Source: Fragilaria crotonensis
Taxonomy: Eukaryota > Bacillariophyta > Fragilariophyceae > Fragilariales > Fragilariaceae
Direction: 5' to 3'
DNA: 64,000 bases
NCBI GenBank assembly: GCA_022925895.1
Contig: JAKSYS010000022.1
Coordinates: forward strand, 124,001-188,000
This document shows positions 1,276 through 59,375 of the stretch, piece by piece (within the stretch, counting starts at the first letter, position 1; every line of letters begins with the position of its first letter). A model generated the notes under the pieces. The model had not been told where the DNA came from. It did no database searches and saw only the letters and a list, made by a program, of their open reading frames with translations. A program made the translations under genes and the position numbers.

Positions 1276-1289
1276 GATCGTAATTTGCG

Positions 1290-14521: not shown

Positions 14522-14534
14522 GGGTCTGATAAAC
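14522..14534 (-). promoter_or_regulatory. Candidate primer-binding site of copia A
   Basis: Directly inside the 5' LTR the minus strand reads GTTTATCAGACCC. The same 13-mer abuts the 5' LTRs of copia B (50456-50468) and copia C (31421-31433). The TATCAGA core resembles initiator-Met tRNA-derived priming sites of copia elements. The tRNA identity was not verified. Confidence 0.6.
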
Positions 14535-26798: not shown

Positions 26799-26813
26799 CC
26801 TGCCTTCATATTG

Positions 26814-31433: not shown

Positions 31434-31714
31434 AAGTAAAATCTCTCGCAAGTGCGGCAAATCCGCCATTGCCAAAGACCAACTCTAAACAATATAGTAA
31501 TCATCTAGATGCGGCATGCAACTTGATTAATTACAAAAAGAGTGAGCTTATCAATCTAATCTCAGTCCTGACCCGGTTGGAGGGCTTCTCCCACCGGTCA
31601 TCCTAGCGAGATGTTCCCAAACATTCCAAGACTAACCAAGACCGGCATAAGTCCTAAGCTCGTCTGTCTTGTCTGTTTGTCCGAATATCCTGCACTCATG
31701 GCAGAATCTATTCA
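31434..31714 (-). repeat. Copia C 5' LTR (281 bp)
   Basis: Pairs with 16134-16415. The candidate primer-binding site gggtctgataaac (plus strand) abuts it at 31421-31433, and the TSD tcac follows at 31715-31718. Confidence 0.9.
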
Positions 31715-39016: not shown

Positions 39017-40799
39017 CTAAACCAAGAAACGATTCGAAATCTCGCCTTGCAGATAGACTTGTGAAAGCTGAAGGATTGTCTCAACAAGCTTCTTTTTCAT
39101 GCCATCACTTTCTGTAACAGCGGCAGCTGTAGCAAGCCAAGGGAGTAATTCTGTGAATTCCTTGAAATTGACGCGATTTGATGGAGACTTCATAATGTTG
39201 AAAATAATCTCCAGGGACTTGAACTCAAATGACGACTTTGTCGTGAAAGTTTGGTCGATTGTGTGTTGTACTATTGCTGTAAGTAGAGCGGTGTTGAGAC
39301 AGATAGTTTTGGCGCACTCTTCGTCTTTGGAACAATTGCGCAGGATGGACAATGCCATTTCTTCATGATCCCGCTTGACATTGGAATCATGAATGAATGC
39401 TGCGATACTATCCACAAACCCGTACTCGGCCATGAGCACTGCAGCAGCTTCCTTACTAGAGGTGCAGGCGTCGAGTGTGAAGAGCGCTTCCATTCGGACA
39501 GAATTGATAGGGAACTGGAGAAAATCTAAAATAGTTGGGTAAAGAATCTTGGATTCCTCATCGACCTTGTCCTTTTTCTTCAATAAATACCTACATATAC
39601 CAGAGGCCACCTCTGTTCTCAGTTGAGCGTTGGGCTCGGCGTGTGCAACACCGATAAGTGCGTGGTTGACAATATGCTTGTGGTGAAAGGTGAGACCGTC
39701 CGAATTGAGTACGGACATGAGGATGGAAATCGCAAGGTCCTTGTTCGGGTCCTGGACGTGATCGGTCCGAGCTAACTTTGCCAATGCCTGGAGAACGAGC
39801 AAGCCGGTAGACGGGCTGGAGCTCCACAAGTTCTTGGCGGTGGCGTCGCAATTCAATAGCAATGCGGTCAGTCTGAGCACATCGGATTGTGTGGCTCTGA
39901 TTTGCATCAGTTGAACCATGTTGACGACTGTGTCTCGTCGACTTGATATCCTGAGAAGGCAAGTCCTCGAGCTGCGAGCAATTTGAAGTAATGCTCTCGA
40001 TACATCGGGTAGCTGTTCGGCAGGTGGGCTGTCGGAAGCTGTCGAGAGAGTTGAAATGACGAAGGGGGCGGCTTTAATCAGCTCCTTCTTGAGATGCGGA
40101 ACTCCTGAAGAACGGGGATGTGCCATCAAACTTGCAACGGCACAGGCTGCGTCAATTCGTGCGTCGGATGAGATATCAGCACACATCAAGCTTCGAAGCA
40201 CTGATACGATTTCCCTTGGAAAATCAACGGCGTTCTTGGAAACAAGAAAGAGGATTCTCGATGTCTTGCTGAGGGCAACATCGCGAGCAACACATGAGTT
40301 GTCGTATGGGAGGAAGACTTCAACGATTCGTACCAGCGATGTCAATAAACCTAGGCCTATCAGATCGTCTAAATGTGCAACGAGAATTTTGTCATAGCAA
40401 TGGAGTACTCGTTCCAATGCGGTGCATAAACCGGATATACGACTTGCTCTCTCATGCCCGACCGGCACGAGGAACGACGTGTCGCCATCGCCTTGGTCGT
40501 GCCTGAGAACGAGATTCGAGGTGAGGGATCGAGCCAAGGCATATGCAACTCCATATTGCACCTCATCGTCGTGCGCATTCTTGTCCTTTCGGTTGCAATG
40601 TTTTGATCCATTCGTGAGGGACGGTAGCAGTTCTTCAGGTGTTGGTGTCTCTGCGCATGCTGCGAGTTATGTTTCGCTGTGTCAGCAACGAACGGCAGCA
40701 CGTTCATCTTCTCTGAGGACAAATTCACGTACCGCTTTTCAAGAAAGGTTCAGTTTCGTGAAGTTTTGTGGTGGCTTGATTCTCCTTGCCGACCGACTC
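39017..40799 (-). pseudogene. ARM/HEAT-like repeat protein gene, 5' end displaced by gypsy insertion
   Basis: The main exon, 39017-40650, encodes an all-helical repeat protein: successive Leu-rich helices such as LTSLVRIVEVFL, AACAVASLMAHP and LLVLQALAKLARTD, typical of ARM/HEAT solenoids. An 82-bp intron fits at 40651-40732 (GTACGTGA...GCGCAG). It joins a short exon, 40733-40799, in frame. That exon is cut at its first codons by the gypsy element. The missing start lies at 50118-50127 (ATGAGCGAGT). With one TSD copy removed the coding length is 1707 nt (568 aa), divisible by three. It probably binds a protein partner, and the target is unknown. The GTG-initiated frame at 40561 is not a credible start. 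Confidence 0.75.
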
Positions 40800-40976
40800 T
40801 ATAACGAGTGGTCGTTACCTATAAGGTAGGCTCGTCGTAGATCGTCCGACATGGTCGGCTTGCTCCTATCGTGACTGGATGATTGTTGTGAGGTTGGGAT
40901 CGATTCAGTGCCTTGGGAGGCTACGTCATCGGTCCACGGGTGACGGACAGTTATCTACATATCGTCTCACGTTACA
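40800..40976 (-). repeat. Gypsy 3' LTR (177 bp)
   Basis: Minus strand begins TGTAACGTGAGACG and ends CTCGTTATA, so the ends are TG...TA and not TG...CA. It is identical by eye to 49941-50117. It contains a copy of the Gag start codon and the first 17 codons. Confidence 0.93.
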
Positions 40977-41646
40977 TCCCCTCTTCTCGTTGTTGTCGGT
41001 GGCCTGTTTCTAGTTGGAAGGGTTCCGGGACCGTCTTCCAGTTCTAGTCATGGCTTCCCTTACCATCGTTCAGAGGTTCGTATCGTTCTCGCGTCTTGTT
41101 CGCTCCTCGTACGTTCGTTGCCGAAACCTTCCTCTGTTCCACGCCGGTTGCGAAAACTCACCGCATCCGTTCCACGGCACCTAGGTCGCTCCAGGGACAC
41201 CGCCTACAAAGTTCTCGCCCCCGGGATTGGCATCGGCCCGCCCCGCTGAGTTTCTTCGTGGCCCGGCTTACTACTCTTCGTCCGGTGGGTGTTTGGGGAC
41301 TTCTAGGACTGGACCGGTTATGGGGTCATTGCCGGCTGCCGCGTCGCTTTCCAGATTTCAGTCGGGTTCGATTCGTCTTTGGTAAACGTTCATTCTGCAG
41401 CGAAATGTCACAACAATTCTCTCGGACTCAGCGCGGCCGCACTTATTTCCGCGAGACCTGTCCACGGGCTCCAAAGTTGGCCGCTGTGGTGGGAGAGATA
41501 CATACTTTGAGTATTAGTACATGGTACGTTGTGGTTGTGCTTACTGATTCTTATGGCTGTCCTGGTCAGTGTTTGGTATCTATCGGTCGTATGTAATGTG
41601 ATGATGTTGTCTGTTTTGATAATTGTGATGTCGCTTTGCTTGATAG
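40977..41646 (-). other. Gypsy 3' untranslated region with polypurine tract
   Basis: About 670 bp between the integrase stop and the 3' LTR. The minus strand reads GAGAAGAGGGGA directly before the LTR (40977-40988), a good polypurine tract. The plus-strand frame 41096-41596 has no recognised similarity and is probably spurious. Confidence 0.7.
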
Positions 41647-44600
41647 TTATCGTAGGGGTATGACTTCTTCAATGTCGCTAACGTCAAGGTTGTGTTGTTC
41701 CGCTGCTGTTTTCAGGTCTTCCCATTCCTCGAATGCAATGCGATTGGCTTCGTTTTGGTAATATTTGGGTACGGCGAAATCAAACGGGCCGACGAGGCCG
41801 TTCTCACATAGGTCGATGGTTTGCTCGTATACTTTGTATCGCTCCGGTTGATCTCTGAGGAGCGCTTCTATTTTGCCTGGGCGCACTGGTACGATCGGTC
41901 CCATCCTGCCGTTCGTACGTAATTGATGTAGTTCGGGCCAGTATCTGCAATTACGGAGTTGTCGGGTTTTGCTGTTCTCGTGTTCACGGATGTAAAACCA
42001 TACCGTGTATTTGCCTTCGTCGCGTGTTGTTGGTGAGTCGTCGTCGTGTAATTTGGCTTGTACAACATACCACTTCGATGTATTTGTTGTGTCAATCATG
42101 TATTTGATAAAGAACAGCTTGTCTCGTGACCTCCTGATTTGTTTGTATAACGTGTGTGCCTTTTTTCGTGTATGACTTTGCGCATGTACCTGTTTTGTAT
42201 CGTCGTTGCGATATCGTTCTGGTTTGTTGGCGGTGCGTGTTGATGTGCGTTGTGTTATTTCGTCGTTGTGGTGTCGTTTGCGTTTGTTGGTGGTTGTTCT
42301 AACGTTTTGTGCTCTCATTGCCGGGACAACGGGTGTTGTTATGGTTGTGGTTGGTGTTTGTTCTTCGGTAGTGTGATTTGCAGGTGTGGTGTTATCCGCT
42401 TGGGGTTGGGGTTGTTGTTGTTGGTCAGGTTGGTCGACTTCATTGTTATTGCTGTCGTTGTGGTGGTTGTCCCCGTCGGTTTCCCTGTCGGTTTGGTTGT
42501 TGTCCTCATCGTCGTTGTCGCTGTCATCATCCTCGTTTCCATCGTCGCTGTGATCGCTGTCTGTCTGCGGCCTGTTGTCAATGTCTTCCTGCCATAAGTC
42601 TTCAATTTTTTCGTATGCGAACGGTTGTTCTGGTTCGGCTTGTCGGTATCGGCCTGGTTCATGTAATCCTAGTATGTTTTCGAGAGGGTTGTCCACGATA
42701 GCGTGTCTGTATGTTGCCAACCGTGTGTCTATGCCTTCTGTAGGTTTGTGTAGGATGAGTGTGGATGGTATTTTGGTCAGACGCGATGCAGATTCTTTCG
42801 TGGGGCGTCCTCGTCGACCCGCTCCGTGTATTCCTGGTAGTCGTTGAACTCGGTATGTGCCGGGTTTTACCTGTTCTAACACTCGATATGGTCCTCTAGC
42901 GTGTATTCGTGCCTTCGCTGGGCCGTGTTCTTGCGTCGTTTGGACTTGTTTCTTGATGATTACAAGATCACCTGGAGCAAAGGTTTTCATGTTGCGTCCA
43001 TCGTTCTTGAGTTTCCTATGGTGTTCGCGGCGATCTTCAATGAGGAGTTTTAATACTTCCTGTTGCTTGCGCCAAAGTGGGAATGCGCTGTCAACGTGCT
43101 CAATGGTTTGTTGTCCTTGTGCTTCGTGATCCCTGGGGACAAGTGGTTCTTTCTCAAAGTCGATAGGGAATGGGAATTCGCGTCCAATTGCCGCGTATGA
43201 TCGCACTATGTTGGTTCCGTCGACTGGGGCCGAGTTCCATGCGTATACGGCGAAGATGGTACCAAACATGAAATCCTGGAATGTTTCACAATCGGCTGCG
43301 TGTATCCGTTGTACTTTGTTGAGGTATCGGTGAAAGCGTTCGCATATGATGGCCTTGTGGTTTCCCTTGCTGACCGTGTAGTTGGGGAGACCAATATTTT
43401 GGCATAGCGTTTGCATTGCTCCTGCAAATTCGCTGCCTGAGTCAATAATGACTAGGCGTGGGAGGCCGTGGTTGATAAAGAATGCTGTGAATGCTGCTCG
43501 TGTCATGCTTTCGGAGTCTAAGGCGTCCACAAATGTAGCGGCTGCGAATCCAGTCATAGCATCGATGCATGTGACTACATGTGTGCCGTTTCCCTTTTTT
43601 ATTGATGCTGCTCGCCCTGGGTGCCAAACGTCTAGTGTGATCACATCGAATGGTTCGTCCGCTTGGAAAGTTTGGAGTTGCTGTTGGGCCTCGTGGCTGG
43701 TTATGTTCGCTGCGTTGCAATGTCCGCATCCAAGCGTCAGTTGTCTAATATCTGTTGCCATTTTTGGCCAGTAATACCTTGCTGCGATCTTCCAGAACGT
43801 TTTCTGGTATCCTGTGTGGCCTGCCATTGGTGCTGTGTGTAATGCCGAGAATATGGCTTGTCGCAACTTGGGTGGTGGGATACGTGTTCGTAAGTGGCGT
43901 CGGTTGTTTGTTCCTCCCCCGTTTCCGTTGTGGTATACGATGCCGTCTTCTTCCTCTAATTTGCCTTGTGTCCACAGTTTGTGTAACGTTGTATCTTGGA
44001 TTTCTTCTCGTTGGAGATCGCGTTGGTTTCGGATGGCCTCGACTATTTTGTTGAGGTCCCAATCCCTTGCTGTGGCGTCTTGCCATTGCGCTGTCGTTGG
44101 TAGCGGTATCGTGGTGGTTTGCTGAAATTCGGTTGCGAGCATGACCGTGAGTGCTCGACGCAAGTCGTCGTCGACTTCAGCTTCTTTGTCATCAATTGTT
44201 GCTGGTGCGTCGTCGTCTCGTGGTGACGTCGTCGTTCTGCATTCGGCGTTGAATATCCCGCTCATGACAGCTGCCATCAGTTGTTTTGGTGGTGTTGTTC
44301 GCAGTTGGGCTATTGCTATTTCTGGAGGCTGTTGCATCATGCGGTATCTGGTATCTTCGTCGTACCCAATTATATCAACCAGTTCGTGATGTCGGATTCC
44401 GCGCACGATGCTAGTGTGTTGCCTGTGGTCTGTCGTTTCGATAGCGAACGGGCTTTCGTACCATTGTGTTGACGTGTCTTGGAGATCTGGTCCTGGATAC
44501 TCTGTGTCGTAGCATGGTGTCCACGCTGTGACCCATTCTATTGTGTTGGTCTCTTGGCTGTTGCGTTGTACCAACGCTGCAACTTTTGGTTCATTCGGGT

Positions 44601-44898
44601 CGTTCTGTGGCGACAACCGCTTCATTGCTCGTATCTCTGGTGCTGTTGTGATGTTCGGGTTGTGTCCTTCCGCCTCGTCGTTTATGATCTCCTTGAGTGG
44701 TATTGCATTGCTGCGTTGTAAGTGGAATGTGCGCAGCGTGTGAATGTTCCTGGTGGCAATGATTAATGTGAATTTGGTGGCAATGGCCGCCCCATATCTG
44801 TTGGCGTGAATGTTTGCTCGTAATGTGTTCCATCCTTTATTTTCCATGGTGTGAATGCGTTGTGCAATGAATGGTGTGTCTCCTTCGTTGTTGCGCAT
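41647..44898 (-). CDS. Gypsy integrase protein (1083 aa)
   Basis: Intact from ATG 44898. Residues of about 355-400 hold an H-H-C-C zinc motif (HTAPMAGHTGY ... CGHCNAAN). The DDE core is TLDVW at about 421, IIDSGSEF at about 485 and CERFHRY at about 519, giving the DD35E spacing. It inserts the cDNA into chromosomes. After the core come a KPGTYRVQRL-like region, an acidic Asp/Asn/Gln-rich linker (about 790-870) and a conserved-looking C-terminal domain with TVWFYIREHENS. No classical chromodomain was recognised. It is much longer than a standalone integrase, and its first 300 residues are of unknown role. It starts 23 bp after the RNase H stop in another frame. Confidence 0.88.
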   Translation of the reverse strand: MRNNEGDTPFIAQRIHTMENKGWNTLRANIHANRYGAAIATKFTLIIATRNIHTLRTFHLQRSNAIPLKEIINDEAEGHNPNITTAPEIRAMKRLSPQNDPNEPKVAALVQRNSQETNTIEWVTAWTPCYDTEYPGPDLQDTSTQWYESPFAIETTDHRQHTSIVRGIRHHELVDIIGYDEDTRYRMMQQPPEIAIAQLRTTPPKQLMAAVMSGIFNAECRTTTSPRDDDAPATIDDKEAEVDDDLRRALTVMLATEFQQTTTIPLPTTAQWQDATARDWDLNKIVEAIRNQRDLQREEIQDTTLHKLWTQGKLEEEDGIVYHNGNGGGTNNRRHLRTRIPPPKLRQAIFSALHTAPMAGHTGYQKTFWKIAARYYWPKMATDIRQLTLGCGHCNAANITSHEAQQQLQTFQADEPFDVITLDVWHPGRAASIKKGNGTHVVTCIDAMTGFAAATFVDALDSESMTRAAFTAFFINHGLPRLVIIDSGSEFAGAMQTLCQNIGLPNYTVSKGNHKAIICERFHRYLNKVQRIHAADCETFQDFMFGTIFAVYAWNSAPVDGTNIVRSYAAIGREFPFPIDFEKEPLVPRDHEAQGQQTIEHVDSAFPLWRKQQEVLKLLIEDRREHHRKLKNDGRNMKTFAPGDLVIIKKQVQTTQEHGPAKARIHARGPYRVLEQVKPGTYRVQRLPGIHGAGRRGRPTKESASRLTKIPSTLILHKPTEGIDTRLATYRHAIVDNPLENILGLHEPGRYRQAEPEQPFAYEKIEDLWQEDIDNRPQTDSDHSDDGNEDDDSDNDDEDNNQTDRETDGDNHHNDSNNNEVDQPDQQQQPQPQADNTTPANHTTEEQTPTTTITTPVVPAMRAQNVRTTTNKRKRHHNDEITQRTSTRTANKPERYRNDDTKQVHAQSHTRKKAHTLYKQIRRSRDKLFFIKYMIDTTNTSKWYVVQAKLHDDDSPTTRDEGKYTVWFYIREHENSKTRQLRNCRYWPELHQLRTNGRMGPIVPVRPGKIEALLRDQPERYKVYEQTIDLCENGLVGPFDFAVPKYYQNEANRIAFEEWEDLKTAAEQHNLDVSDIEEVIPLR

Positions 44899-44921
44899 CG
44901 TTTGTCGCGTGAAGATGATGA

Positions 44922-47356
44922 TTACTGTAACTCCATGTCGTTCCCGATTTCGATCAGCTGGGTGAGTTGACTGTGCTGATGCTGAACGTCTCTTTCGTTG
45001 TCTGCCTCGCAGCCGTCGTGTGCTATGATCCAGTCGACTGTCTCGGTTGACTCTATGCTTCTCTCGAGCTGGTCGCTTGTGATCAGTTTTGGGTCTGTCC
45101 GTTGTTTGTCAAATGGGTGTGTTCGCCATTCTGGTCGGTCTTCGATGTGCCGTGTGTATGCTGTGATGCCCGCCTCTATTGCAGCGTTTTCGATGTTCGT
45201 GGCTCCTGCGTTGAAAATCCAAATGTTCCGGGTATTGTCGCTCTTTGCCGCCAAAAGTGTCTTTGGTTGTGTCCGGTCTTTCGATGCTTGAACTGGGCTG
45301 TTTGAGATGGCGATGGGGATTGCGCTGGTTATTGGAGTTGTGGTTTGTGGATCTGGTCTCCATTTGCGCGTGGCATTGTTGTATCTGGTTAGTGCGTCGC
45401 ATTCGACCATAAATCTGGCTGGTCGATGTACGATCGTGAACATAAATCTCAGCAGTCGTTGTCGCATCCGTTGGTGTGTGTGCGTGGGTATGTCCTCCCC
45501 ATCGAAAAATTGTCGCAGCCCATTGCAGTCTGTCATCCATGTGAATTCTTTGCCGAATAGGTGTCGTTTATACTTTTCGATTGCCCATACGCCTGTCGCT
45601 GCCTCGCCTGTGTATGAATGCATCGCACTTTCGTTTTCGTTGCATTTGCGCGAGCTAAATGCGATTGGTCTTAGCCGAAGACGGTGCATGTGTTTATCGA
45701 AGCTGCACTGTCTGCCTTGTGTTGCTTCTTGTGTCTCGTGTTGCTTTGCTACTTCGTCGTTTGGGTCCGCCTGAAGTAGTACCGCTGCCATGCCCAGTCT
45801 ACACCAGTCCGTTTTCAGGTAGAATCTTCTCGTGTAGTCTGGTCTTGCTAACGTGGGTCGTGTCATCAGTTCATCCAGGAGTTCGTTGAGTAGTTCTGTG
45901 TCTACGTGAGTCCATTCCGTTGCCAGTGATATTTCGTTCTCGGTCGGTCTCGTGCCTTTAAGCTTTTTTATGTGCTGTCTCCATCTTCCTATTCGTAGCT
46001 CGTAGTTGGCTATCCAGTCTTGATAGAATCCGATGAGACCTATTACTTGTCGCAAGTCCGTCAGCGTGTTTGGTATCTGGTTTTTCAGATCCTCGAGTGC
46101 CTGCATTTTGGATCGCGCTGGGCGATTACCATCGGCTTCGACGTCCATGCCCACGAATTCTGCACTTTGTGGGAAGAATCGACACTTCTTCAGTTTAACT
46201 GTTACTTGATGTCGTTGCAGCACCTGTAGGACAATCTCGAAGTATTTTATTAGTGGTTTCGCGTCTTCTGAATGTAGCATGATGTCATCTACGATGACTT
46301 CAGCATCGGTCCACGGTCTTTCGCCTTTAATGTCACTTCTATGTCGTCGCGTATGCCTAATTCCGTCGCTTGCTGGTTCCACTGACGTTTCAATGTGTCC
46401 ACCAGGCAACAGAATGTGCCGTGTGCATTGAGGCATCCCATCGGCATGACAGTCCACCGTTTCTGTCCGCCAGGCACAAAGAATGCCGTTTTGTCACGTG
46501 ACGTTTCGTGTAGCAAGACCTGCCAGAATCCGCTTTCGAAGTCCATGGTGATGAAGTGTTTAGATCTTCCGATGTCTCTTGCTGCATCATCGCACCTGCG
46601 TGACGGGTATATGAATGGTCTCGTGATGGCATTTAGTTTTCGGTACGATACGGTTAATCTCCATATGTACTCGGACCAGTGGACGTGGTTTTGATTTGGT
46701 TTTGCTGCTAAGACCACTTGGGCTCCCCAGGGGCTGCGTGCGTCCTCTATTAGTCCGTTTTCCTCTAAGCCTCGTGCCAGTTGGGTGATGACTCTTGCTT
46801 CGTGTGGTCCATACCGTGGTACTGGGCAGCATACTGGCTGGGCGTTGCCTGTGTCGATGTGGCATACGAATCCCCGGATGTGCTGTTTGAGTCCTTCGGG
46901 TGCGAAGACGTCCCAGTATTGTTTTATCAGTTCGAGGATTGGTGGTCGTAATTCCTCTGGGCAGTCTTCCCATTGCAGGGACTTTCGGATTGTTTCTGCG
47001 TGTTTCTCGTCGTTGTATTGAATTATTGAGGTTGGATCTCGCTCGGTCACTTCCTGTTTTGTTTTAGATACCGCTATTCCGCCATTTCGGTACAACACTT
47101 CTAATGTGTCGTCGTCATCCGGCAAATATTCTGGTTCTTCATACTGGGAAGTCGGTTTTGGCCTATATGGTCTCTTTTCTGTTATGACTGGTTTGCTTCC
47201 GTCATCCATGCGTTGTTTCGCCGATTCTACTTCTTCCTTTGTGGCCGCGGATGCTGCCATTACCCTAATATGTAATTCATTGGTGGTGGTGTTCATTCCG
47301 TAAGTGATGTCGTTTGTCGTGATTTTTGTTTTGTTTTCTGTTTTTTCTTTGCTCAT
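44922..47356 (-). pseudogene. Gypsy reverse transcriptase-RNase H, one frame break
   Basis: Two blocks: 46289-47356 (355 aa, ATG MSKEKTENK) and 44922-46457. The first has RT motif A MDFESGFW at about 272 and PMGCLNAHGTF at about 305 (the usual family form is PMGLxNAPATF). The second has VIVDDIMLHS, then RNase H KTDWCRLGM at about 215, TGEAATGVW at about 285 and WMTDCNGL at about 309. A single one-base indel between about 46295 and 46330 separates RT motifs B and C, so as written RT is not made whole. With identical LTRs this may be a sequence error or a fresh lesion. Confidence 0.88.
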
Positions 47357-47407
47357 GTAATTCTCTTCGTGTTGTGTCTTTGTGTCCGCGTGTTCGCGGG
47401 TGTTGTG

Positions 47408-49993
47408 TCATTCGCTGGGTGCCGCTGCGTAGACCGCTGTTGTTTCTGCCCTGAATCGGTCTTGTGGTGTGGGGGGTGTTCGCCTTGTTGGTGTCTCATA
47501 TTGGATGCGAAGCGTCGTGTTCCAAATGGTCAGGTGGATGTTTGGTTCCGCGTCGTCGTAGCTCCACAATGCTTTAGTCTTCCTGAGGAAGTTGATGGAC
47601 ACAATTGCTGTCGCCGCCGCGTGTTCGCTTAGCCCGAATGTTAGATTGCATGCGATTCCGTTGTATCTGAATGGTGTCCTGTACTCGATGATGTGTGTGA
47701 GTTTCAGTGTGGTGGCGGAGACTTCGACGCCTCCGATGGTCACATCTTTTTCCCCGTATGCCTGCATTGGTTTGAATGATGCGACTAGTTCTGGGAAGGT
47801 CTCTGCCATGGCTTTGTGGAATTCCAAATGGCCGATGTTGACTCCTGCGCATGAGTCGAGGGCGATTGTGAGTTTTCCTCTTCCATGGGTTGTCCCGATG
47901 GGAAATTGGCAGTGAGGTAATGTCGGCGAGATTTCGAGTGGGAGCGCATTTATGACTGTTGCCTGGAACACCCTTGCGATGAAGTGGTAGGTATCATGTC
48001 CCTTGTCCTGATTTCTGCTCCTGGTTGCGGGTCCATAATAGTCCACGGTGTCCTCCGTTTCGTCAATGTTGTTTGCAGTGTTGGTCGTTTCGCTCAATTT
48101 GCGCGTCCATTCTCGGTTGAGGTTCTTTCTGTGTCGTGCTGAGACGTCCGTGGCCATTAGTGCTACTGCATCTGCCGCACGTTCTGCATCCTTCTTGGAG
48201 ATGAAGCCGAGGTCGCGCCAGTCTCTCATTGCTTCGGCCTTCGATAGGAGTGCTTGACCTTCGCGTTTGCGTGTTCCTGTGATCGTTGGGTCGCGCTTCC
48301 GGTTTTCCCACTCTTCCCTCATTTGTTTCATTCGCCTGAACGCGGTCTTGCGCACGTCGGGGTCGTATTTGTTGGGGCAGTCACGGAAGCTGTGGAATCT
48401 GTTGACGTGGTGCGTTGTATGTCCTGTGCATCCCCAGCATTCGATAGGTCGTTCGGTGCCGCTTGCGTTTCGTAGTGCGCTTTCCGCTGGGCTGAGGAAA
48501 CAACTGGTGGATGCCAGTGTTTTTCCGCACGTCTCCATTAGGATGACTTGCTCCATTAACGGGTCGAATTCCGTGTCTGTGAATTCCAATGTTGCGGGCT
48601 GATGGGTCGCTCCGTCCATTGTGTTGTCACTATACTTCTCGTTGCTTTGATCTTCACTGTATGCCATGAACGCGCGTGCCGAGGGTTTCTGTTGGTATGG
48701 TCCGCGATTGGCATTTGGGTTGTGTGATCTGTTGATGGGTACTGGGTTGAGAGTGTTTTTAATTAGCTGAATTTGCGTTTCGATATCGCGTTCCTCTTCC
48801 ATCGCCAAGTCGCGGAGTCTTTGCAGCTGCATCAATTGTTCTTGGTTGGAGCTTGGTGGTGGGTGATGGTAACGTCGTCTGTTTAATTTGCCCTGCATAT
48901 GAGATGTGAGCGAATTAAAGAACGTTGTAGGTAGGTTGACTGGGTAATCTACTTCGGCGTTGAGTTGGTGCACGATTGCAGTGAATCTGGCATAGTGTTC
49001 GGCAATTGTGGCAGCTGTGGTTTGCCCTTTTTCGTTTGTTCCCTTTTGTTGGCATTGGATCAGTCGTGTTACCGGCGTTTCGATGATTCCTTCGCCTACG
49101 AAAGCTGGTCGCATGAGCCTTGCAACCAGTTCGTACTTGGTGTGTTGCTTAATCTCCTCGATCCAGGTGTTAAACTTGTCTTGGCTGAATTGCTCGCGTT
49201 CGAGCATGCCAAATTGGGTATCGCCTTGCAGGTACTTGCTTACGGTGATGAGCTGTTTGATGTCTCGAATTGTTTCGAGCGTGATTGCTTCGTGTAGCAT
49301 TCCGGCGGGTCCTTGTGGGAGTCGGAAGAGCACGATCTTCGTGTCCGCTCCGGGGAACAGGTTGTGTCCCGGCTGCCCTGGGATTGTGTACCTGCGCCTT
49401 GGGTCGATGGTCATTTCTGTTATGACGTATCGGGCCGTGGCTCGGAAGTTGGCTTCGTTGGCTCCCGGTTGTGGTATGTTGATGGCGCGGTGTGCCGCAC
49501 TTTGTACATGTAGAAATGTGTACTCGAATAGGGCGCTGTCGTAGTTGTTGAAGTCCTCAATTGCCAGAGTGGCACTGGTTAGGATTAGTGCTTGGTTAAA
49601 GTGGTTGACTAGGCAATCGGTCTTGTTTTTCCATTTGCCATTTCCAGACCTGATCGATTCTATGGCGTGCTCTAGTACCATGGATCTGACGTCTTGTGGG
49701 TCTGTGGTTCGGGGGCATGGTGCGAGCATGTATGTCGCCCCACTCCATGTCTTTTCTTGCAAGTTGAGCCCGCCGTCCGCCTTTAAGGTTCGTGTATTCG
49801 CGTACGGGGGTCGCCCGCCGGCTCGGCCATGGTGCCAAGGGTCATTCTGGTGGTCGAATTGGCGTGGCATGGCCGCAAATGCGTGTGTCGGGTTCGCGTT
49901 TCCCGTGATAGAGTCGGGGTTGGTACCGGGCAGGTTTCCATATAACGAGTGGTCGTTACCTATAAGGTAGGCTCGTCGTAGATCGTCCGACAT
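47408..49993 (-). CDS. gag: Gypsy Gag-protease (861 aa)
   Basis: Open from ATG 49993 to 47408. The first 17 codons lie in the 5' LTR and the next ones cross the primer-binding site. The N-terminal 450 residues are the helical Gag. A zinc knuckle-like CWGC...H...FRDC lies at about 521, and an aspartic protease-like ALDSCAGVNIG at about 714. The protease signature differs from DTG/DSG (DSC). The next ORF starts 51 bp later. The start is supported by the diverged relative at 37461, which keeps MS-D/E-x-LR in the same place. The alternative start is Met at about codon 42. Confidence 0.85.
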   Translation of the reverse strand: MSDDLRRAYLIGNDHSLYGNLPGTNPDSITGNANPTHAFAAMPRQFDHQNDPWHHGRAGGRPPYANTRTLKADGGLNLQEKTWSGATYMLAPCPRTTDPQDVRSMVLEHAIESIRSGNGKWKNKTDCLVNHFNQALILTSATLAIEDFNNYDSALFEYTFLHVQSAAHRAINIPQPGANEANFRATARYVITEMTIDPRRRYTIPGQPGHNLFPGADTKIVLFRLPQGPAGMLHEAITLETIRDIKQLITVSKYLQGDTQFGMLEREQFSQDKFNTWIEEIKQHTKYELVARLMRPAFVGEGIIETPVTRLIQCQQKGTNEKGQTTAATIAEHYARFTAIVHQLNAEVDYPVNLPTTFFNSLTSHMQGKLNRRRYHHPPPSSNQEQLMQLQRLRDLAMEEERDIETQIQLIKNTLNPVPINRSHNPNANRGPYQQKPSARAFMAYSEDQSNEKYSDNTMDGATHQPATLEFTDTEFDPLMEQVILMETCGKTLASTSCFLSPAESALRNASGTERPIECWGCTGHTTHHVNRFHSFRDCPNKYDPDVRKTAFRRMKQMREEWENRKRDPTITGTRKREGQALLSKAEAMRDWRDLGFISKKDAERAADAVALMATDVSARHRKNLNREWTRKLSETTNTANNIDETEDTVDYYGPATRSRNQDKGHDTYHFIARVFQATVINALPLEISPTLPHCQFPIGTTHGRGKLTIALDSCAGVNIGHLEFHKAMAETFPELVASFKPMQAYGEKDVTIGGVEVSATTLKLTHIIEYRTPFRYNGIACNLTFGLSEHAAATAIVSINFLRKTKALWSYDDAEPNIHLTIWNTTLRIQYETPTRRTPPTPQDRFRAETTAVYAAAPSE
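49923..49940 (-). promoter_or_regulatory. Candidate primer-binding site of gypsy element
   Basis: Directly after the 5' LTR the minus strand reads TGGAAACCTGCCCGGTAC. TGG pairs with the CCA end of a tRNA. The priming tRNA was not identified. The sequence is also translated as part of Gag. Confidence 0.65.
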
Positions 49994-50117
49994 GGTCGGC
50001 TTGCTCCTATCGTGACTGGATGATTGTTGTGAGGTTGGGATCGATTCAGTGCCTTGGGAGGCTACGTCATCGGTCCACGGGTGACGGACAGTTATCTACA
50101 TATCGTCTCACGTTACA
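49941..50117 (-). repeat. Gypsy 5' LTR (177 bp)
   Basis: Identical by eye to 40800-40976. It carries the Gag ATG at 49991-49993, about 125 bp from the LTR's outer edge. The LTR is short for gypsy, so the promoter must lie within about 100 bp or outside it. Confidence 0.93.
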
Positions 50118-50200
50118 ACTCGCTCATGTTCAATCTTTTAGTGAATTAATGTTTTGTGGACGTGCGCAAACTACATCGGGAACGTCCGGCAACACACCTC
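50118..50200 (-). pseudogene. Stranded 5' end of the ARM-like gene
   Basis: An 83-bp host fragment trapped between the gypsy and copia B elements. On the minus strand it ends with ATG AGC GAG T (50118-50127), which continues in frame at 40795. This is the simplest start of the ARM-like gene (MSES). Upstream of it GTGTGTTG at 50197 and CATGAG at 50123-50128 could be the ends of a 75-bp intron if an upstream exon exists at 57710-57822. Confidence 0.65.
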
Positions 50201-50455
50201 TGAATGAATTCTGCCATGAGTGCGGGATATTCGGACACCGGGACAGACCGAAGTATCTTGGGCTGACGCAAGACGCGTGCCACGTACGCATGCGCGGATG
50301 GGACACTTCATCCGCGGCATGAGGGAACAAGTCTAGAATATGCTCACTCTTTTTGTAAATAGTCAAGTTGCATGCTGCTACTAGTTGATTACTACATGTC
50401 TTAGAGTCGTCCCTGGCAATGGCGGATGCGCCGCTCTTGCGAGGGAATCAACTGA
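50201..50455 (+). repeat. Copia B 5' LTR (255 bp)
   Basis: Begins TGAATGAATTC and ends CAACTGA. It is followed at once by GTTTATCAGACCC (50456-50468), the candidate primer-binding site. Confidence 0.93.
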
Positions 50456-51596
50456 GTTTATCAGACCCAACATGCATGTAGCTATGTTGTAGACATTAAA
50501 TGCTTTCGTCAATGGTTGATGAGGAGGCCTGATCAGCCTCAACAGCAGAAGGAGCGCGGATTCTGCGATAATAGTCCTGTGGTCGTGGTGGTCGAATGAT
50601 CCAGGCCTGCAGCCGTGGCTCGAAGACGGTAACGCTACCGTCGGCGTGTCGGTGAACGTCTCCCGAACGCAAAGACCTAACTCCGATGGGGGGGGGTTCA
50701 ATGTGAAGCGCCATTTGGCGCCATCATAAGAGAGGGGAAAGACCGACCATAAGAGGCGTTGTTTCGCTTTCGCCGTAAAAGGTGGTGTAGCGCACGTCAT
50801 GATACTAGTATAGTGGTGTTTATGTGAACACGACACTATTTGGTACCAATCCATGCCAGGATTGGATCTTGGTTGTCTGTCTAGTACAATTTCTACGAGA
50901 TTGACTTATACTGGACATTTTCCGAACAGAGTTTGTTGTTTACATAACTTGGTAACGAATGGATGCTATAAGTATCCTTCAACCGAGAATTTTGATCGGA
51001 ATGAGTCACGATTGACATACGCGTAATGCTCACGCGTATGAACGTGAAAACCATATGGAAGCGTACGACGTACGTGTGATGGCCACGCATATGGACACGA
51101 GAACCGCACGAGCACGACAATGACTGTTGTGAGTACTCGTTCGGGTTGGTTACCTATTGTTATGGGGTCATAGATGTCCGAGACACGACTGTTACTTCAA
51201 GTTGGGCACGCATGCCTCCACAGACACGACTGTTACTTCAAGTTGGGCACGCATGCCTTCACAGACACGACTGTTTTTGCGTATGCGCGTGGCCGTTTGT
51301 GCGTTTGGTCTGCGAGGCTCCTAAGTACTCTCATCCGTGTGACCAATGCGTGACGCGTATGTCAGCCATTTGTCACGAATGCGTCATCCGCGGCAACGGA
51401 GTACTTAGGGAGTTCTTGTGAATCTACCCGTGTGACTCACAGCAAACAGGATTGGACGTGTACGTGCAAAGTATTCCTACGTAGGGAACGTACCAGGAAC
51501 ACGTACATGCACCCGAGGGCCTGGGGCTCACAATTTTGCCAAATTTGCAAACCACGCGGTTAATCCGGTAACTACCCTCCTGTCTCACTTGTCACC
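50456..51596 (+). other. Copia B untranslated leader
   Basis: 1.14 kb between LTR and gag, collinear with copia A 13401-14534. It contains the 41-bp tandem repeat (about 51180-51281), several palindromes around 51010-51110 with gcgtat/atacgc and ccatatgg-like cores, and a run of eight G at about 50690-50697 that is absent from copia A. No convincing ORF. It may contain packaging signals. Confidence 0.7.
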
Positions 51597-53025
51597 ATGG
51601 CTGATGCCAGATCCTTCACTGCTTGCCTTACCCGCTTGGGTTTTGATGTACCTACGCGGGAATTGATTGCAAACCAAGGTATTCGTACCATCAATGATCT
51701 AACTGCCTTACCTTTTCCAGAGATTGACACTATGATTCAGCACCTCTCCAGGTGGAAGCCAAAGGCGGCTGATGTCGATGACGACGATGATCCTGTCGCG
51801 TCCCCAACGTTCCCTTACCTTGCGGTTAGGAAGTTTAAGGCCCTACGCTCGTGGGCAGATTACTCCCTTCTTCGCGGCGATGCTCCAAACCCCGCTCTTT
51901 TCGATGAACGCACCTCGTCGCGCTTTCTCAATCGATTGACTGAGTTGGAGGAGATTGCTCGAGCAAAGAAGGATGGGGACGATGCGAAGGAACCGCCAAA
52001 GTTAATGTTAATGACTGCATGGCCTACTTGGATCGAACTGTTTATGACTTACCTTGCTCAGCAGAGGAGTGTCGTGGCGGGGACCCCGCTTGTTTATGTC
52101 ATCCGGGACAATGATGAGGCGGCGCCAGATGATCTTGCGCGCAATAATTGGGATTCAGTCGATGATGACTTGATCGCCACTTCCGTCCTCGAGGGTGAAA
52201 CCTTTTCTCGTGACAACAAGCGTGTGTTTGACATCCTTAAGCCCTTTGTGATGGAGGGACAGGGATGGCCATTCCTTCAGACATTTAACAAGAAGCGCGA
52301 TGGTCGCGCAGCTTTCAAGGCTTTGAAGTCGCAGGCAGAGGGCAAGTCTGCTATTGCCACTAGGAAAGCTAAGGCATATAACATGCTCGCAACAGCTACC
52401 TACACTGGCAAGGGCAAGTTCTCATTTGATCAGTATGTTGCACGTCTTCAACAGGCTCACAATGAATTGTTGTTTTTGGAAGAGCCAGTTGCTGAAACCA
52501 AGAAGGTTACAGATTTTCTGGCTGGGATACGTGACCCAAAGTTGGAGACCGCCATTCAAGGTTGCATGGGCGATGAACTAAAGTTGACCAACTTTGAAGT
52601 GTGCCAGCAGTATTTCAAGACGATTGTGGAAAATACCAAGACCAGGACCAAGTCACCTTCTGATGTTCGTGAGATCTCTAAGGTTGGAGTCGAAAAGGAC
52701 AAGAAGAAGGCTAAGCACAAGAAAGACAAGTCGAAGCCCAATGATGATGAGAAGACACCAAGTGGCATTGCAATTCATTCTGGCCAATACTCGGCCAAAG
52801 ACTACAACAAATTGAAGCCTTTGAGAAGGCGAAAGTCAAGCAGCTCCGTGAGGAAGCAAAGAAGAAGGAGAAGAAGGACAAGTCTGACGCTCGCAGCGTT
52901 GCCGTTGTCGCGACTCAGGAGGAGGCACCCCTGATGACAATGAAGGCACCAAGACACCTGTGGTTTCCAATGCTGGAAAACAGTTTGGTCGTGCTGCTCA
53001 TGGTGAGCAGCAGAAGCAGGCTTGA
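51597..53025 (+). CDS. gag: Copia B Gag, two one-base losses
   Basis: Starts at ATG 51597. It matches copia A Gag almost residue for residue up to KLKP. There a T run is one shorter (at about 52820) and the frame is lost. The C run before the end has four C where five restore the frame. With both corrected, Gag is 476 aa and ends at TGA 53023-53025. The Lys-rich C-terminus has no CCHC motif. The same frame continues past the TGA into pol. Confidence 0.85.
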
Positions 53026-56000
53026 TGCCTCGCGCCGGCTCTCGTTAAGACAGACGACCTAATGTTAGTCTCCACTTATGTTCGAGAGGCCGGGCCCCCT
53101 TCTAATCTTTGCTCTCGGTTTGTGAAACATGTCTTTCGCGTATCCGCATCGACACCCTCCGGGGACGATGAAGATACACGCACCGAACTCGATTCTCATG
53201 CGGATACTTGTGTCGCAGGTCGCAACACTCTGCTTGTCTCTGACGAAGGTCGTCAGGTCACCGTTCATCCTTACAGCGGTGAATATAAGCCCATACCGGA
53301 TGTCTCCATCGCCACTGTTGCGACTTTGTGGATTCACCCTACTGACGGGCAACCGTACATCCTCATTATCAACGAGGCTCTGTATTTCGGGGACCGAGTG
53401 GATGTCACTCTGCTCAACCCCAACCAACTACGTGCGAATGGAGTCACGGTTGAGGATGTACCCCGCCAGTTTGATTCCAAGTCTTCGCATTCAATTTATC
53501 ACCCAACCGCAAAGTTGCGAATTCCTTTATCCCTTGACGGCATCTCTTCCGGTTTCGTGAGTCGTAAACCCACTTGGGAAGAATACGAACAATACCCCCA
53601 CGTTGAATTGACATCCCCGATGCGCTGGGATCCCTCTTCTGACCAGTTTGCCAAAAAGGAGGAGACATATGTTTCCAGCGTGAGTGTTGCCGAAACGTTA
53701 TTGGCAACTGATCATGTGAGGAATGCTTCGAGGTTGGTTTCGGCGGTGAAATCTTTAAGCTCGATGAACGCTCCCATCGGTCTGGAGGATGACTCTCTTG
53801 GGAACCGGTTGGTGGCTGCAATTAACGTCGCAGTAGATGACATTGTCGGTGACGGCTTATCCGGGAGAACGGACAATGATGTCTACCCAATGGATGGAGA
53901 AAGCCGGAAATTGTTTTCCCTTTCAACTAGTGAGAAACGATCTGCCTTAACACCTGAGATTCTTTCCAGAAGATGGGGAGTTGGCCTTGACACTGCCAAG
54001 AGAACGTTGCAAGTGACAACACAATCTGGGATAAGAAATGTCTTGGCACCGGGTGAAAGGAAGGTACGTCAGAAGCTTGATCATCTCGCTTTCCCAAACC
54101 TAAGCGGACGCTGGTACTCGGATACGATGTTTTCGAAGACACAATCAGTCAGGGGACACTTGGCTGCACAGGTGTTCACCAATGGTCGTGGGAGTGACCA
54201 CTTCTACCCCATGAAAAGTAAAGGATTGGCTGGTCAAAATGCTTTGATGCCATTCATTCAAGAGGTTGGGATACCCCAGACTATTGTGACAGACAATGCA
54301 CCTGAAGAGGTCCACGGTGAGTTTGGAAAGATTTGTAGACGGTTCCGCGTCAAGCAAGAACAAACTGTCCCATACAGTCCGTGGTCCAACCTGGCTGAGT
54401 CAACAATTCGAGAATTGAAGGTCGGGATCCGGAGGACCTTGAGGCGCTCCAAGGCACCGAAGCGACTTTGGTGTTACTGTGGAAAGTGGGTGGCAGCGAT
54501 AAGAAGACTGACGGCCCTTGATATACCCCAACTCCAAGGAAGGGTACCAGATGAAGACGTGCTGGGATGTACACCCGACATTTCCCAGTACGCCCAGTTT
54601 GATTGGTATGAGCCGGTCATGTACTGGGACCCGGTTGGCAGCTTCCCGTTTGAGCAGAAGTTGTTTGGTCGATGGATTGGTGTTGCCGAGGTTTCAACCG
54701 ACCTTATGGCGTTTTATATCCTGACCAGATCTGGGAAGGTGATTGTGCGGAAATCTGTTTGGGGATTGAGTGAGGATGATCTTGCCAACCCAGATATAAA
54801 GCTCCGACTATCTGAATTGGATGAAGGTATCCAGTCTAAGATTGGGGATGGACTCAAGACAGAGGACATCGACCCAGACCTAATGGACTCCATGCCGGAG
54901 GTTCCTGATGATGTCTTCGAAGATGACGAGGACGACGTTCAGTCAGGGACAGGGGACCTTGATGGCACCGCCAAAGATGTCGAAGACCATACCCCTGAGT
55001 CCTATGATGAATACTTAACTGCCCAGGTGCTACTTCCCCAAGGTGGAGAAGCTAAGAAAGCAACTGTGATTGGGAGGAAGCGCGACCATGATGGTCGTCC
55101 GATTGGGCAGCGCCACGCAAATCCGTTACTGGATTCACGTCTCTATGAGGTGGAGTTTCCAGACGGATCAACGGAAGCGATTACTGCAAACCTCATTGCC
55201 GAAAACATGTTATCCCAGGTCGATGACGAGGGACGAAGTTATGCAGTGATGAGTGAAATTGTCGATCACCGAACGAACGGACATGCCTTGTCAAAGGATG
55301 ACGGGTTTGTTGAAGACAAACGGGGACGGAGACATCCACGAATCACTACGCGGGGATGGGAGTTGCAAGTCGAATGGCGGGATGGCTCAACGACCTGGGT
55401 ACCATTGTCAGAATTGAAAGAGTCAAATCCGATTCAAGTTGCGGAGTACGCTGTCGCCAACAAGATCGCTGAAGAACCTGCGTTCGCTTGGTGGGTGCGC
55501 AACGTCTTGCGTAAAAGGGATCGGATAATCAAGAAAGTCAAGGCCAGATACTGGGCGAAGACGCATAAGTTTGGCATTGAGCTCCCAAAGACTGTGGCAG
55601 AGGCCCTTAAGATCGATGAGCGAACAGGGACTGATTTTTGGAGGAAGGCAATCGAATTGAGATGAAGAACGTCATGCCAGCATTCGAGTTCATTGATGAT
55701 GATGCAGTGCCGAAATTCTACAAGAAAATTGATTGTCACATGATCTTTGATGTCAAGATGGACTTGACTAGAAAGGCGCGGTTGGTGGCCGGTGGGCACC
55801 AAACGGATCCGCCGAAAGAGTCTACGTACTCGAGTGTGGTGTCACGTGACAGTATACGAATTGCTTTCACGCTGGCGGCACTGAATGACTTGGATGTCCT
55901 TTCTGCCGATGTGCAGGGGGCATACCTTAATGCTCCAACGAAGGAGAAGGTTTACACGACCGCTGGGTTGGAGTTTGGTGCAGACAAAGTTGGTCGACCG

Positions 56001-57266
56001 GTCCTAATTGTTCGAGCTCTCTATGGGTTGAAGTCAAGTGGTGCTCGATGGCGAGACCACATGGCGGCCACGTTACGGGAAGGAGGCTTTGTAAGTTGCA
56101 GAGGTGATCCTGACGTATGGATGCGGCCCAAGGTGAAGACGAATGGGGACAAATACTGGGAGTATGTTCTTTGCTATGTGGATGATATTTTGTGCGTGTC
56201 GCACGAACCGCAAGTGGTCATGGACTACCTCGCCTCCAAGTATACCCTAAAGAAAGGAAGTGTGAAGGAACCTGACTCATATTTAGGTGCCGAAGTCAAG
56301 AAGTGGACAATCGATGGTGCAGACAACCCAAGCAAGGTAAGATGGGCAATGTCTTCTGACCTTTATGTAAAGCGTGCTGTAACCGAGGTTGAACGTGAAC
56401 TTGATGAGATTGGTGAACGGCTAAGCACAAAGGTGTCGACGCCTATGAGTCAGGGTTACCGACCTGAAATTGATACAACCCCGGAACTGGACGCAAAGCG
56501 TGCGAACTATTTTCAGGGATTGATCGGAGTGCTGCGCTGGATCTGTGAACTTGGGCGCGTTGATATCCTCGTTGACGTTGCAATGTTGTCGCGTTTTCTT
56601 GCTGCACCAAGAAGGGGGCATCTCGACCAAGCTTTCCACATCTTCGCGTACTTGAAACGATACAACCGGTCAAGCATGGTATTCGATGACACGGAGCCAG
56701 TGTTTGATGAGAGTCGCTTTCAGAAGTGTGATTGGACTGAATACTACCCGGGCGCGTGCGAGGTAGAGCCGCCAGGTGCACCCGAATTACGGGGGCAATC
56801 GGTATCGATGAGTTGTTTTGTTGATGCGGACCATGCTGGTTGTCGTGTCACACGGCGCTCTCATACTGGAGTTTTGATTTTTATTAATCGAGCACCTATC
56901 CTTTGGTATTCGAAACGGCAAAATACTGTCGAAGCATCGACCTTTGGATCTGAGTTCATTGCTGCAAAGGTTGCAGTGGAGATGATTGAAGGACTGCGTT
57001 ACAAGCTGCGGATGATGGGTGTCCAAGTGGATGGGCCAACAAACGTATTTTGTGATAATGAATCCGTCGTCAAGAATTCGACGAAGCCTGAGTCAACTCT
57101 GAAGAAGAAACACAATGCGATTGCTTACCACCGAGTGCGTGAAGCGCAAGCGGCAGGTATTGTGCGGATCGCTAAGGAGGACGGAGAAACCAACTTGGCG
57201 GATATCCTAACCAAGTGTCTTCCTGGGCCACGGCTAAGAGAGTTGTGCTCGCGTATACTTTGGTGA
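53026..57266 (+). CDS. pol: Copia B Pol (protease-integrase-RT-RNase H)
   Basis: Two long frames: 53062-55665 (867 aa) and 55638-57266. The first has protease ELDSHADT (Asp at about 44), the integrase core YSDTMF (Asp 354), VTDN (Asp 411) and LAESTI (Glu 446), a DD35E arrangement, then an acidic linker. The usual integrase H-H-C-C zinc site is replaced by an RRWGVGLDTAKRTLQ stretch, which I recall as typical of diatom CoDi elements. The second has RT ADVQGAYLNA (Asp 91), YVDD (182-183), and RNase H VDADHAG (Asp 396), GSEFIAA (Glu 439) and CDNES (Asp 473). They overlap with a -1 offset at about 55658 (KAIE). Copia A has the same break. Confidence 0.92.
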
Positions 57267-57453
57267 CTGGTCCAAAAAGGACGCGGTTACGAGTGGAGTA
57301 CATAATGATTATGGAACCACTAACCCCCAAAACGGATGGGTGGACGTACACGTGATGACACGTGGAACCACCATAAACTAGCCGAAGTCGGCCGGCCACT
57401 GCATTGACGAATTCGGTCGAACTAGTCGTCTCTGACGATTAGCTCGAGGGGAC

Positions 57454-57708
57454 TGAATGAATTCTGCCATGAGTGCGGGATATTCGGACACCGGGACAGA
57501 CCGAAGTATCTTGGGCTGACGCAAGACGCGTGCCACGTACGCATGCGCGGATGGGACACTTCATCCGCGGCATGAGGGAACAAGTCTAGAATATGCTCAC
57601 TCTTTTTGTAAATAGTCAAGTTGCATGCTGCTACTAGTTGATTACTACATGTCTTAGAGTCGTCCCTGGCAATGGCGGATGCGCCGCTCTTGCGAGGGAA
57701 TCAACTGA
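57454..57708 (+). repeat. Copia B 3' LTR (255 bp)
   Basis: Identical by eye to 50201-50455. It is preceded by the purine-rich cgaggggac (57445-57453), a likely polypurine tract. Confidence 0.93.
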
Positions 57709-57709
57709 C

Positions 57710-57822
57710 CTCATCTTGCTATCAATTCTACGTAGAAGCAACGTGAAGAAATCTGATTTTGCCGAACCATCCGTGTCGCCGGCTTTTTTCGCGAAAAATT
57801 TATTGAAAACAAGTGCGAACAC
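57710..57822 (-). other. Possible upstream exon or 5' UTR of the ARM-like gene
   Basis: On the minus strand an ATG at 57822 opens 37 codons (MFALVFNKFFAKK ...) up to ATGAG at 57710. With copia B and one TSD removed, this is followed by GTGTGT, a possible splice donor. Joining to 50122 keeps the frame (total 604 aa). Equally, the stretch may be promoter or UTR of a gene starting at 50127. Confidence 0.35.
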
Positions 57823-59375
57823 GTAATTAGCTAAGCAAGATGGCGTCGAGTTCGACCTCCCGCCTTTTCCATTTTTGTTCGTAGATATGTACTGCGCTCT
57901 ACTCGTACTTTAACGATAGTACTTGTACTGGCAGAACGGCTACAAGTGGATGCCTTAAGGTACTGGTACAGTATGTCATAGGCAGTGCTTGGGTCTACAA
58001 TGGCCTGCAGAGACGGGAATTTCAAACCCAGCCCACCCAAACCCACGGCCCACCCAAACCCATTGGGTTAAGGGTGGGTTTTGGGTGAGCTCAGGATTTC
58101 ATGGGTGGGTCTGGGTGGGCCGGCAAATCATAGCAAAAAATGACTGTAGATGTTTGCTACCGGTAGTAGTAGAGCCATCTAGTCCAGTACTAACTACTGG
58201 GTTTGGGTGGGTTTGGGTAGGTCTTGGTAGATCGTATGGGTTCTGGGTGGGTTTGGGCTGGTACTTCCGTGAGCGTAGCTTTACGTGGGTACCCATGGGT
58301 TTGATATTTTCAGAAAGCCTGGTTTCCAATTGCCAAGTATCGAACGGTGGTACGCAGTACGCAGTAGACTAGTCTTCATGACGTTTATGGGTATCCTCTA
58401 GGAGTCACATGACTTTGGGATGGTTCAACAGTTCACAGGCCTGAGGGATGGCGGGTGCGTTAGCAAAAAGGACTTCCTGGCATATATTATATCGCCCGGT
58501 CGCCTAATCGGTCTCATGGAAAACAAATCATCGATTCCAATCCGGAAGCAAGCTTTTCAATTGCACTGCATGGTGCGGTTGTCCTCGGTCCGTCAGTCCA
58601 TGCTCCGCGGCGACAAAGGCACTAGGGGAGTAGTGGTAGTAGTACTGTACTACTGATCTATCCCTGCGTTCGCCTGAGGTCTTGTCTGACACGTTCGGCG
58701 ATCAACATCTAGAACCATACTGGGCATTATACTGTACTAGGGTACTACCTCAGGTAGAACATATTTGATACCATTAATTATGATATTATGATGCATAGAA
58801 TTTTTCAAATTGTTCCGTTGCCAACTATGTATTGACTTTCTCAAATCCTGACATGAGGAGAACGGAGAACACACATGAATAGTGACGAGCAGTATGTGAA
58901 CTGTGAACCCCACGCCATCACAAAACCCATCCTCTACTGAAACGGCACCGTCATTTGATCTGTTGCCAATCGTTAATAGACGCTGGACGGTTGTGGGAGT
59001 CACCCAGCAACGAGACATATTGTGTGTTGTGTGGAGAAGGAGCGTTGTGGGATTGGATTAAGACTTCACTGCCCGCTGGTTTTGCAATTTTAGATTATTT
59101 ATCATCGTCTCTTTTGTCACTTGCTATTCCAAGTTCTTGCATTCCTGTCCCAGTCCAGAGCGGATTTACAAGTCGACACGTTAGCACGTCTGGAAGGAGT
59201 TGATTGAAGGCAGTGAGTGAGAGGGCGGTATAGACTATTCGACAACGGGCGTCGGAACAATTGACCGACTAGTTGTTACGTTGCCTGATACACTGCTAAG
59301 CCCTTCCCTTTGACAAGTGGCATAACGCAGGAGAACTCATCCATTCGTTGCGGCGCGAAAACAAATAGAAACAAA
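57823..59375. other. Intergenic between ARM-like gene and kinase gene
   Basis: The two host genes diverge from here, so their promoters should lie in it. 58022-58257 is a G-rich gggtttgggtggg repeat tract (listed separately). 58590-58660 has short gtagtagt repeats. The plus-strand frames 58420-58656 and 58955-59203 were not recognised. Confidence 0.45.
58022..58257 (+). repeat. G-rich degenerate repeats with three G-quadruplex motifs
   Basis: Four-run G3 motifs with short loops lie at 58103-58119, 58199-58217 and 58238-58257, all on the plus strand. An inverted C-rich copy lies at 58026-58062. The unit is about gggtttgggtgg. It does not match a telomere repeat exactly. Confidence 0.75.

Follow-up and report, generated by a model that had tools for sequence, protein, structure and literature searches.

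The 64,000-nucleotide stretch of Fragilaria crotonensis DNA analysed here (C153:124001-188000; hereafter 'the window') contains an armadillo-like gene whose first exon is severed by a Ty3/gypsy retrotransposon, with a Ty1/copia retrotransposon immediately upstream (Table 1). The assembly that we searched comprises 881 contigs and 62.11 Mb, and one of its other contigs, C840, carries the same gene with neither element present.

Gene structure and the two elements

When both elements are removed, the host flanks join as ATGAGCGAGT + CGG..., in frame, and the joined host sequence reads ATGAGCGAGTCGG... The original prediction had proposed an in-frame join of 50118-50127 to the region of 40795, an 82-bp GT–AG intron and a total of 569 codons, and each of these held up: the two pieces of exon 1 are contiguous, as real sequence, on C840; the intron agrees with the frame and the splice sites; and the reconstructed open frame has 569 codons including the stop (568 aa), the length also found on C840. 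The sole paralogue found in this genome, on C273, is 79% identical at the amino acid level. It has an ATG AAC GAG... start, which does not lie inside the main exon, and a KENQ motif, and its intron (74 or 80 bp) occupies the same place; sharing the ATG, exon 1 and the intron, it confirms all three in the armadillo-like gene. A chance in-frame join of the ATG at 50127 can be rejected, because on C840 the sequence runs uninterrupted through the join and the paralogue conserves this ATG. The gene product has an ARM-like fold, in keeping with the superhelix of alpha-helical repeats that marks armadillo proteins. Pfam gave a weak p25-alpha match (E = 0.05), and neither the NCBIfam search nor PDB sequence searches returned a match.

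The element in codons 3-4 is 9.3 kb long, with 177-bp LTRs and the 4-bp target site duplication (TSD) ACTC (40796-40799 and 50118-50121). Along its minus strand come RVT_1, RT_RNaseH and Integrase_H2C2, each of which exceeded the cut-off in one piece or more, and then rve, which did not reach it. With its reverse transcriptase and RNase H ahead of the integrase, its paired LTRs and its short TSD, the element is a Ty3/gypsy (Metaviridae) retrotransposon. All three copies of the family whose flanks were read have a 4-bp TSD. RVT_1 is split across two overlapping frames, through either a real change or an assembly indel.

The upstream element is 7.5 kb long, with 255-bp LTRs (50201-50455 and 57454-57708) and the TSD CCTC (50197-50200 and 57709-57712), 70–73 bp upstream of the ATG. 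A weak rve match (E = 0.007, below the cut-off) is followed by RVT_2 (E = 1e-17, over the cut-off), and this integrase upstream of RVT_2, together with the LTR pair and the TSD, is characteristic of Ty1/copia (Pseudoviridae). The LTR pairs of both elements are identical, as had been claimed, and the claimed spacing of about 80 bp proves to be 83 bp when one target copy is counted at each end and 75 bp when only the unduplicated host sequence is. The pol domains of gypsy (44922-47407) and copia (53026-57266) are spread over overlapping frames despite the identical LTRs; these frames may be real defects or assembly indels.

Table 1. Features of the locus, in window coordinates; negative positions in the last column are relative to the ATG.
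Feature	Position	Strand	Evidence or remark
Exon 2 (main exon, stop included), armadillo-like gene	39017..40650	-	Open frame; C840 copy identical; C273 paralogue 79% (aa); ARM-like fold
Intron, 82 bp, GT–AG	40651..40732	-	Frame and splice sites; paralogue intron in same place
Exon 1, 3' part, holding one gypsy target copy (40796-40799)	40733..40799	-	
Ty3/gypsy LTR retrotransposon	40800..50117	- (same direction as gene)	LTR pair; RT/RNase H/integrase order; empty site on C840
Gypsy 3' LTR, adjoining remaining gene body	40800..40976	-	Identical to 49941-50117
Gypsy 5' LTR	49941..50117	-	Identical to 40800-40976
Exon 1, 5' end	50118..50127	-	ATG = 50127-50125; severed by gypsy; 50118-50121 = second target copy
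Unduplicated host sequence between elements	50122..50196	.	Identical to C840; 50122-50127 = ATGAGC of exon 1; 50128-50196 = -1 to -69
Ty1/copia LTR retrotransposon	50201..57708	+ (opposite to gene)	LTR pair; integrase then RVT_2; empty site on C840
Host upstream sequence, -74 to -353	57713..57992	.	End 57988-57992 (CTTGG) = target of C840 11.8-kb element
High-copy repeat, 309 bp, absent from C840	58008..58316	.	5-bp TSD GCCTG (58003-58007, 58317-58321); -364 to -368

An empty and intact counterpart on C840

C840 carries the gene body at 100% identity and lacks both elements. Window position 40799 lies next to 50118, with a single ACTC (C840:38314-38317), and 50200 lies next to 57708, with a single copia target copy (38235-38239); the ATG is at 38308, and the frame is uninterrupted after intron removal. 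The host flanks of both insertion sites are identical between the two contigs. A candidate for the empty allele, which the original prediction had named among its checks, is thus present in the same assembly, with both sites empty and one target copy each. As this arrangement exists in the genome as assembled sequence, the state of the window arose from it by two insertions, and C840 supplies the empty, intact counterpart with single target copies that is expected of a haplotype-specific transposable element insertion.

C153 and C840 are collinear over 15.9 kb of host sequence, from window -9066 to about 58781, with identity rising from 93.9–97.4% on the left to 99.4–100% on the right; in the compared sequence, which on C153 lay to the right of 94000, no collinear homology was found outside this interval. 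At its left end the homology adjoins a repeat (C840:54988-60454). At window 58781 the haplotype homology ends, and a kinase-encoding stretch follows on the right. From the collinearity and the identity gradient we infer that C840 is allelic to the window, which is most likely one haplotype of a diploid diatom, C840 being the other.

It is improbable, in our judgement, that the two contigs are instead copies of a recent segmental duplication of which one received the insertions. The collinearity spans only 15.9 kb and ends on both sides within compared sequence, as a duplication might; to the right of 58781, moreover, the best 40 of 278 candidate matches include no near-identical second copy other than repeats, the best non-repeat matches listed being 83% for the kinase stretch (C135) and 87% (C38) and 85% (C693) for a further piece. 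However, the left-to-right rise in identity is the pattern expected of recombining haplotypes, and the repeat at the left end also argues against duplication. Canu has been reported to split diatom haplotypes into separate contigs at LTR insertions (PMC8147415), and the assembly of F. crotonensis SAG 28.96 (61.85 Mb, 879 nuclear contigs) is reported to have been made with Canu and then passed through Redundans to drop redundant contigs (PMC9476933). Even if the contigs were duplicates, the insertions would still be young and the empty sites still valid. A 6-kb probe from C840:70000-75999 found repeat matches only in the assembly, which says nothing on allelism.

Gypsy and copia might also have entered separate molecules, whether in trans or in distinct cells of the culture, and have been joined in the contig through the identical 83 bp between them. 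That stretch is the same on both contigs and so carries no phase information, and a read spanning both elements needs about 17 kb. Such a join is nevertheless very improbable: on C840 both sites are empty and less than 85 bp apart, a distance that any long read covers, and in a clonal diploid the molecule other than C840 then carries both elements.

Age of the insertions and consequence for the allele

Divergence between C153 and C840 falls steeply towards the gene. From the far left, successive segments differ by 81 SNPs in 1,770 bp, 77 in 2,128 bp, 15 in 734 bp and 24 in 1,346 bp; nearer the gene there are 6 in 2,274 bp and then 5 in 2,551 bp (33979-36529), and around the gene, from 36530 to 58771, none in about 5,087 host bases, a stretch bounded by the two nearest SNPs in which the 4-bp gypsy target is counted twice. 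This gradient fits recombination or gene conversion between the haplotypes. Between 33979 and 40799 the contigs also differ by 12 indels, most of them in short runs: ten involve one base and two involve two bases. Eight of the 12 lie in the SNP-free part and none within the gene (39017-40799). One-base indels of this kind resemble nanopore residue and make open or broken frames elsewhere less certain.

Zero SNPs in 5,087 bases bounds the divergence at less than about 6e-4, a limit 20 to 29 times tighter than either LTR pair provides; the mutation rates assumed in the age comparison cancel out in this ratio. Because no SNP is found over these host bases, both insertions are younger than the haplotype split. 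Old insertions are rejected, given that the flanks are identical between the window and C840.

Read from the promoter side, the ATG now opens M-S-E-L-stop, ending inside the gypsy LTR. The 3' LTR at the other junction runs in the gene direction but contains stops in the gene frame, so that a fusion product starting from it is rejected; beyond the junction, the first in-frame ATG leaves just the final 389 codons to be read. The window allele is therefore probably null, or at best would give a protein without the first 179 residues.

We propose that a Ty3/gypsy element entered codons 3-4 after the haplotypes' last common ancestor at this place, and that a Ty1/copia element entered about 70 bp upstream of the ATG after the same split, each insertion duplicating a 4-bp target. 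Accessible chromatin at the gene start may have favoured integration. The intact C840 allele could supply the product, and the lesion would probably be tolerated as a heterozygous recessive. We hold it very probable that this account is right as a whole: one haplotype of a diploid hit by gypsy and copia, its allele probably null, with C840 as the intact partner. Insertions piling up under relaxed selection in a gene that was already dispensable would be distinctly improbable. The dN/dS of 0.23 between the gene and its C273 paralogue, the absence of frame damage in the C840 copy and the lack of any SNP between the two copies all speak against dispensability, even though the paralogue could cover the function and the intact haplotype has an 11.8-kb element of its own 349 bp upstream.

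Haplotype-specific LTR insertions, Blackbeard and Surcouf, have been reported in Phaeodactylum tricornutum (Maumus et al. 2009, PMC2806351). As that report describes them, they resemble the present case in being heterozygous, with an LTR element on one haplotype and the other apparently intact, and Blackbeard has a similarly short 4-bp TSD (TTCC). Unlike them, the window has elements of two superfamilies on a single haplotype, separated by 83 bp at the same gene start, in Fragilaria and in one strain. In long-read assemblies of P. tricornutum, most CoDi insertions are reported on a single haplotype, and Canu is reported to place the two haplotypes on separate contigs, as we infer for C153 and C840 (PMC8147415). 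That work is described as a genome-wide count of novel loci, whereas here a single locus is followed base by base. Haplotype-specific retrotransposon insertions are thus already published for diatoms, and the window is a new, well-resolved instance. It is a fully resolved case of two mobile elements breaking a constrained host gene on a single haplotype, with the inserted and empty copies in one assembly and with a SNP-free block that dates both insertions more tightly than their LTRs.

Possible clustering of insertions at gene starts

The 15.9 kb of shared host DNA contains eight large insertion differences, of which the window haplotype carries six and C840 two; this count leaves out an extra C840 stretch of about 84 bp at window 6557/6563, the small indels and the point where homology ends (58781). 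In addition to gypsy, copia and the 309-bp repeat, the window haplotype has three insertions absent from C840: a second copy of the copia family at 7297-14789 (98.8% identical to 50201-57708, inverted, TSD ACAC), a 15.6-kb LTR-bounded insertion at 16134-31714 (ends of about 284 bp, 98.2% identical; TSD TCAC) and an 11.7-kb insertion at 1-4429, reaching leftward to about -7296. This last insertion, whose ends CATCAGAAGGTG.../...CACCTTCTGATG are inverted and which has a 2-bp AG duplication, is a large DNA-transposon-like element. Absent from the window is the 11.8-kb LTR element of C840 (26183-37956; 602-bp identical LTRs, TSD CTTGG, -349 to -353), whose LTR belongs to a high-copy young family (at least 40 matches at 98–100%, among the best 40 of 185 candidates). 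C840 also has a 1.1-kb element (45137-46258; window site 33979-33982) with a TTAA duplication and CCCCAAACATT inverted ends, which we take to be piggyBac-like; it lies about 80 bp upstream of the ATG of a 419-aa open reading frame at window 34063-35322.

Half of these differences (4/8), taken across both haplotypes, lie in a host stretch of about 370 bp. A post hoc simulation that placed insertions uniformly gave P = 0.003 for such a group of four among eight when the whole host length is the target, 0.013 for 60% of it and 0.04 for 40%. For a pair within 79 bp, the same simulation gives P = 0.14–0.32 among six insertions and 0.25–0.52 among eight, according to the assumed target length. The hotspot that had been suggested is thus partly supported: the pair 80 bp apart is unremarkable at the local insertion density, but the four insertions and the positions of the gypsy copies favour it.

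The gypsy LTR has 16 matches, ten of them at 75–92%; the flanks read are those of the three copies with LTR pairs of at least 92%, in the window, on C88 and on C636. By our own gene models, all three lie at putative gene starts. The C88 copy is 68 bp before the ATG of an open reading frame with a secretory-type leader, judged by eye; this frame shifts within the flank, and its PsbP match is weak (E = 0.013, below the cut-off). The C636 copy is in codons 5-6 of one possible start, again by eye, or 193–232 bp before the next ATGs, and the open frame there matches Polyketide_cyc2 with E = 1e-5, which narrowly misses the cut-off. A 270-bp start zone for each of the 26,015 published genes amounts to 11% of the genome, and finding both further copies in such zones has P = 0.013, a figure that comes from tiny numbers, our own gene models and a zone picked after the sites were known. 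The joined flanks of the two copies found no empty allele in the assembly (0/2); this fits a collapsed or purged assembly, and heterozygosity is not thereby demonstrated.

Copia gives no support for a start-site preference at its eight other sites. An exact 4-bp TSD is present at seven of them and imperfect on C115, making nine of ten with the two window copies. The C484 site adjoins a transposase match above the cut-off, and the inner C142 copy lies, by position, between the LTRs of the outer one. The copies on C735, C333, C115 and C3 and the outer C142 copy were judged from frames, by eye, to be in or beside repeats, a setting that Pfam searches at the C735, C333, C3 and outer C142 sites did not confirm. 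The C556 copy is in unclassified DNA (C556:24986-32793) and has a copia-free relative at C120:197837-203907, the right-hand piece of which is only 86% identical; there, about 5.6 kb of other sequence is inserted within about 10 bp of the C556 copia point.

Clustering without any cause, in a region dense in young insertions where the pair at the start site arose by chance, has in our estimation a little less than an even chance of being correct. Eight large differences in 15.9 kb, the P values for the pair and the copia sites elsewhere are consistent with it, and a genome-wide search would be expected to meet similar clusters somewhere. The four insertions in some 370 bp, the three gypsy copies near putative gene starts and the C120 insertion so close to the C556 copia point argue against chance. 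We are doubtful of the stronger proposal, in which the gypsy family would prefer protein-coding gene starts, as Tf1 does, and such starts would be hotspots common to unrelated families, both haplotypes having been hit independently within tens of bases. A tRNA gene as the targeting cause was rejected, as ARAGORN, in its bacterial setting, detected no such gene across the window and the sequences L004 and L046-L049.

Tf1 and Tf2 are Ty3/gypsy elements. In Schizosaccharomyces pombe they are reported to integrate in the promoter regions of genes (PMC5741268, PMC4600332), and the likeness of the gypsy copies to them lies in this behaviour, not in membership. Compared with Tf1 and Tf2, the case here consists of three copies checked against our own gene models, with no targeting factor or chromodomain identified. 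Among the titles and abstract openings listed by our literature searches there was no report of gene-start targeting by a diatom gypsy element. Were gene-start clustering true genome-wide, a gypsy system that targets promoters would be available in a diatom, outside fungi, and allele-specific expression in diatoms could draw on recent promoter insertions; it is this clustering that is worth a genome-wide test.

In the assembly as a whole, C881 carries the RuBisCO large subunit, as expected of a plastid contig. Of 19 silicon-transporter matches, 18 exceed the cut-off, and these indicate a diatom. One stretch, C97:29749-33762, encodes three tandem silicon-transporter domains in a single open frame of 1,456 aa.
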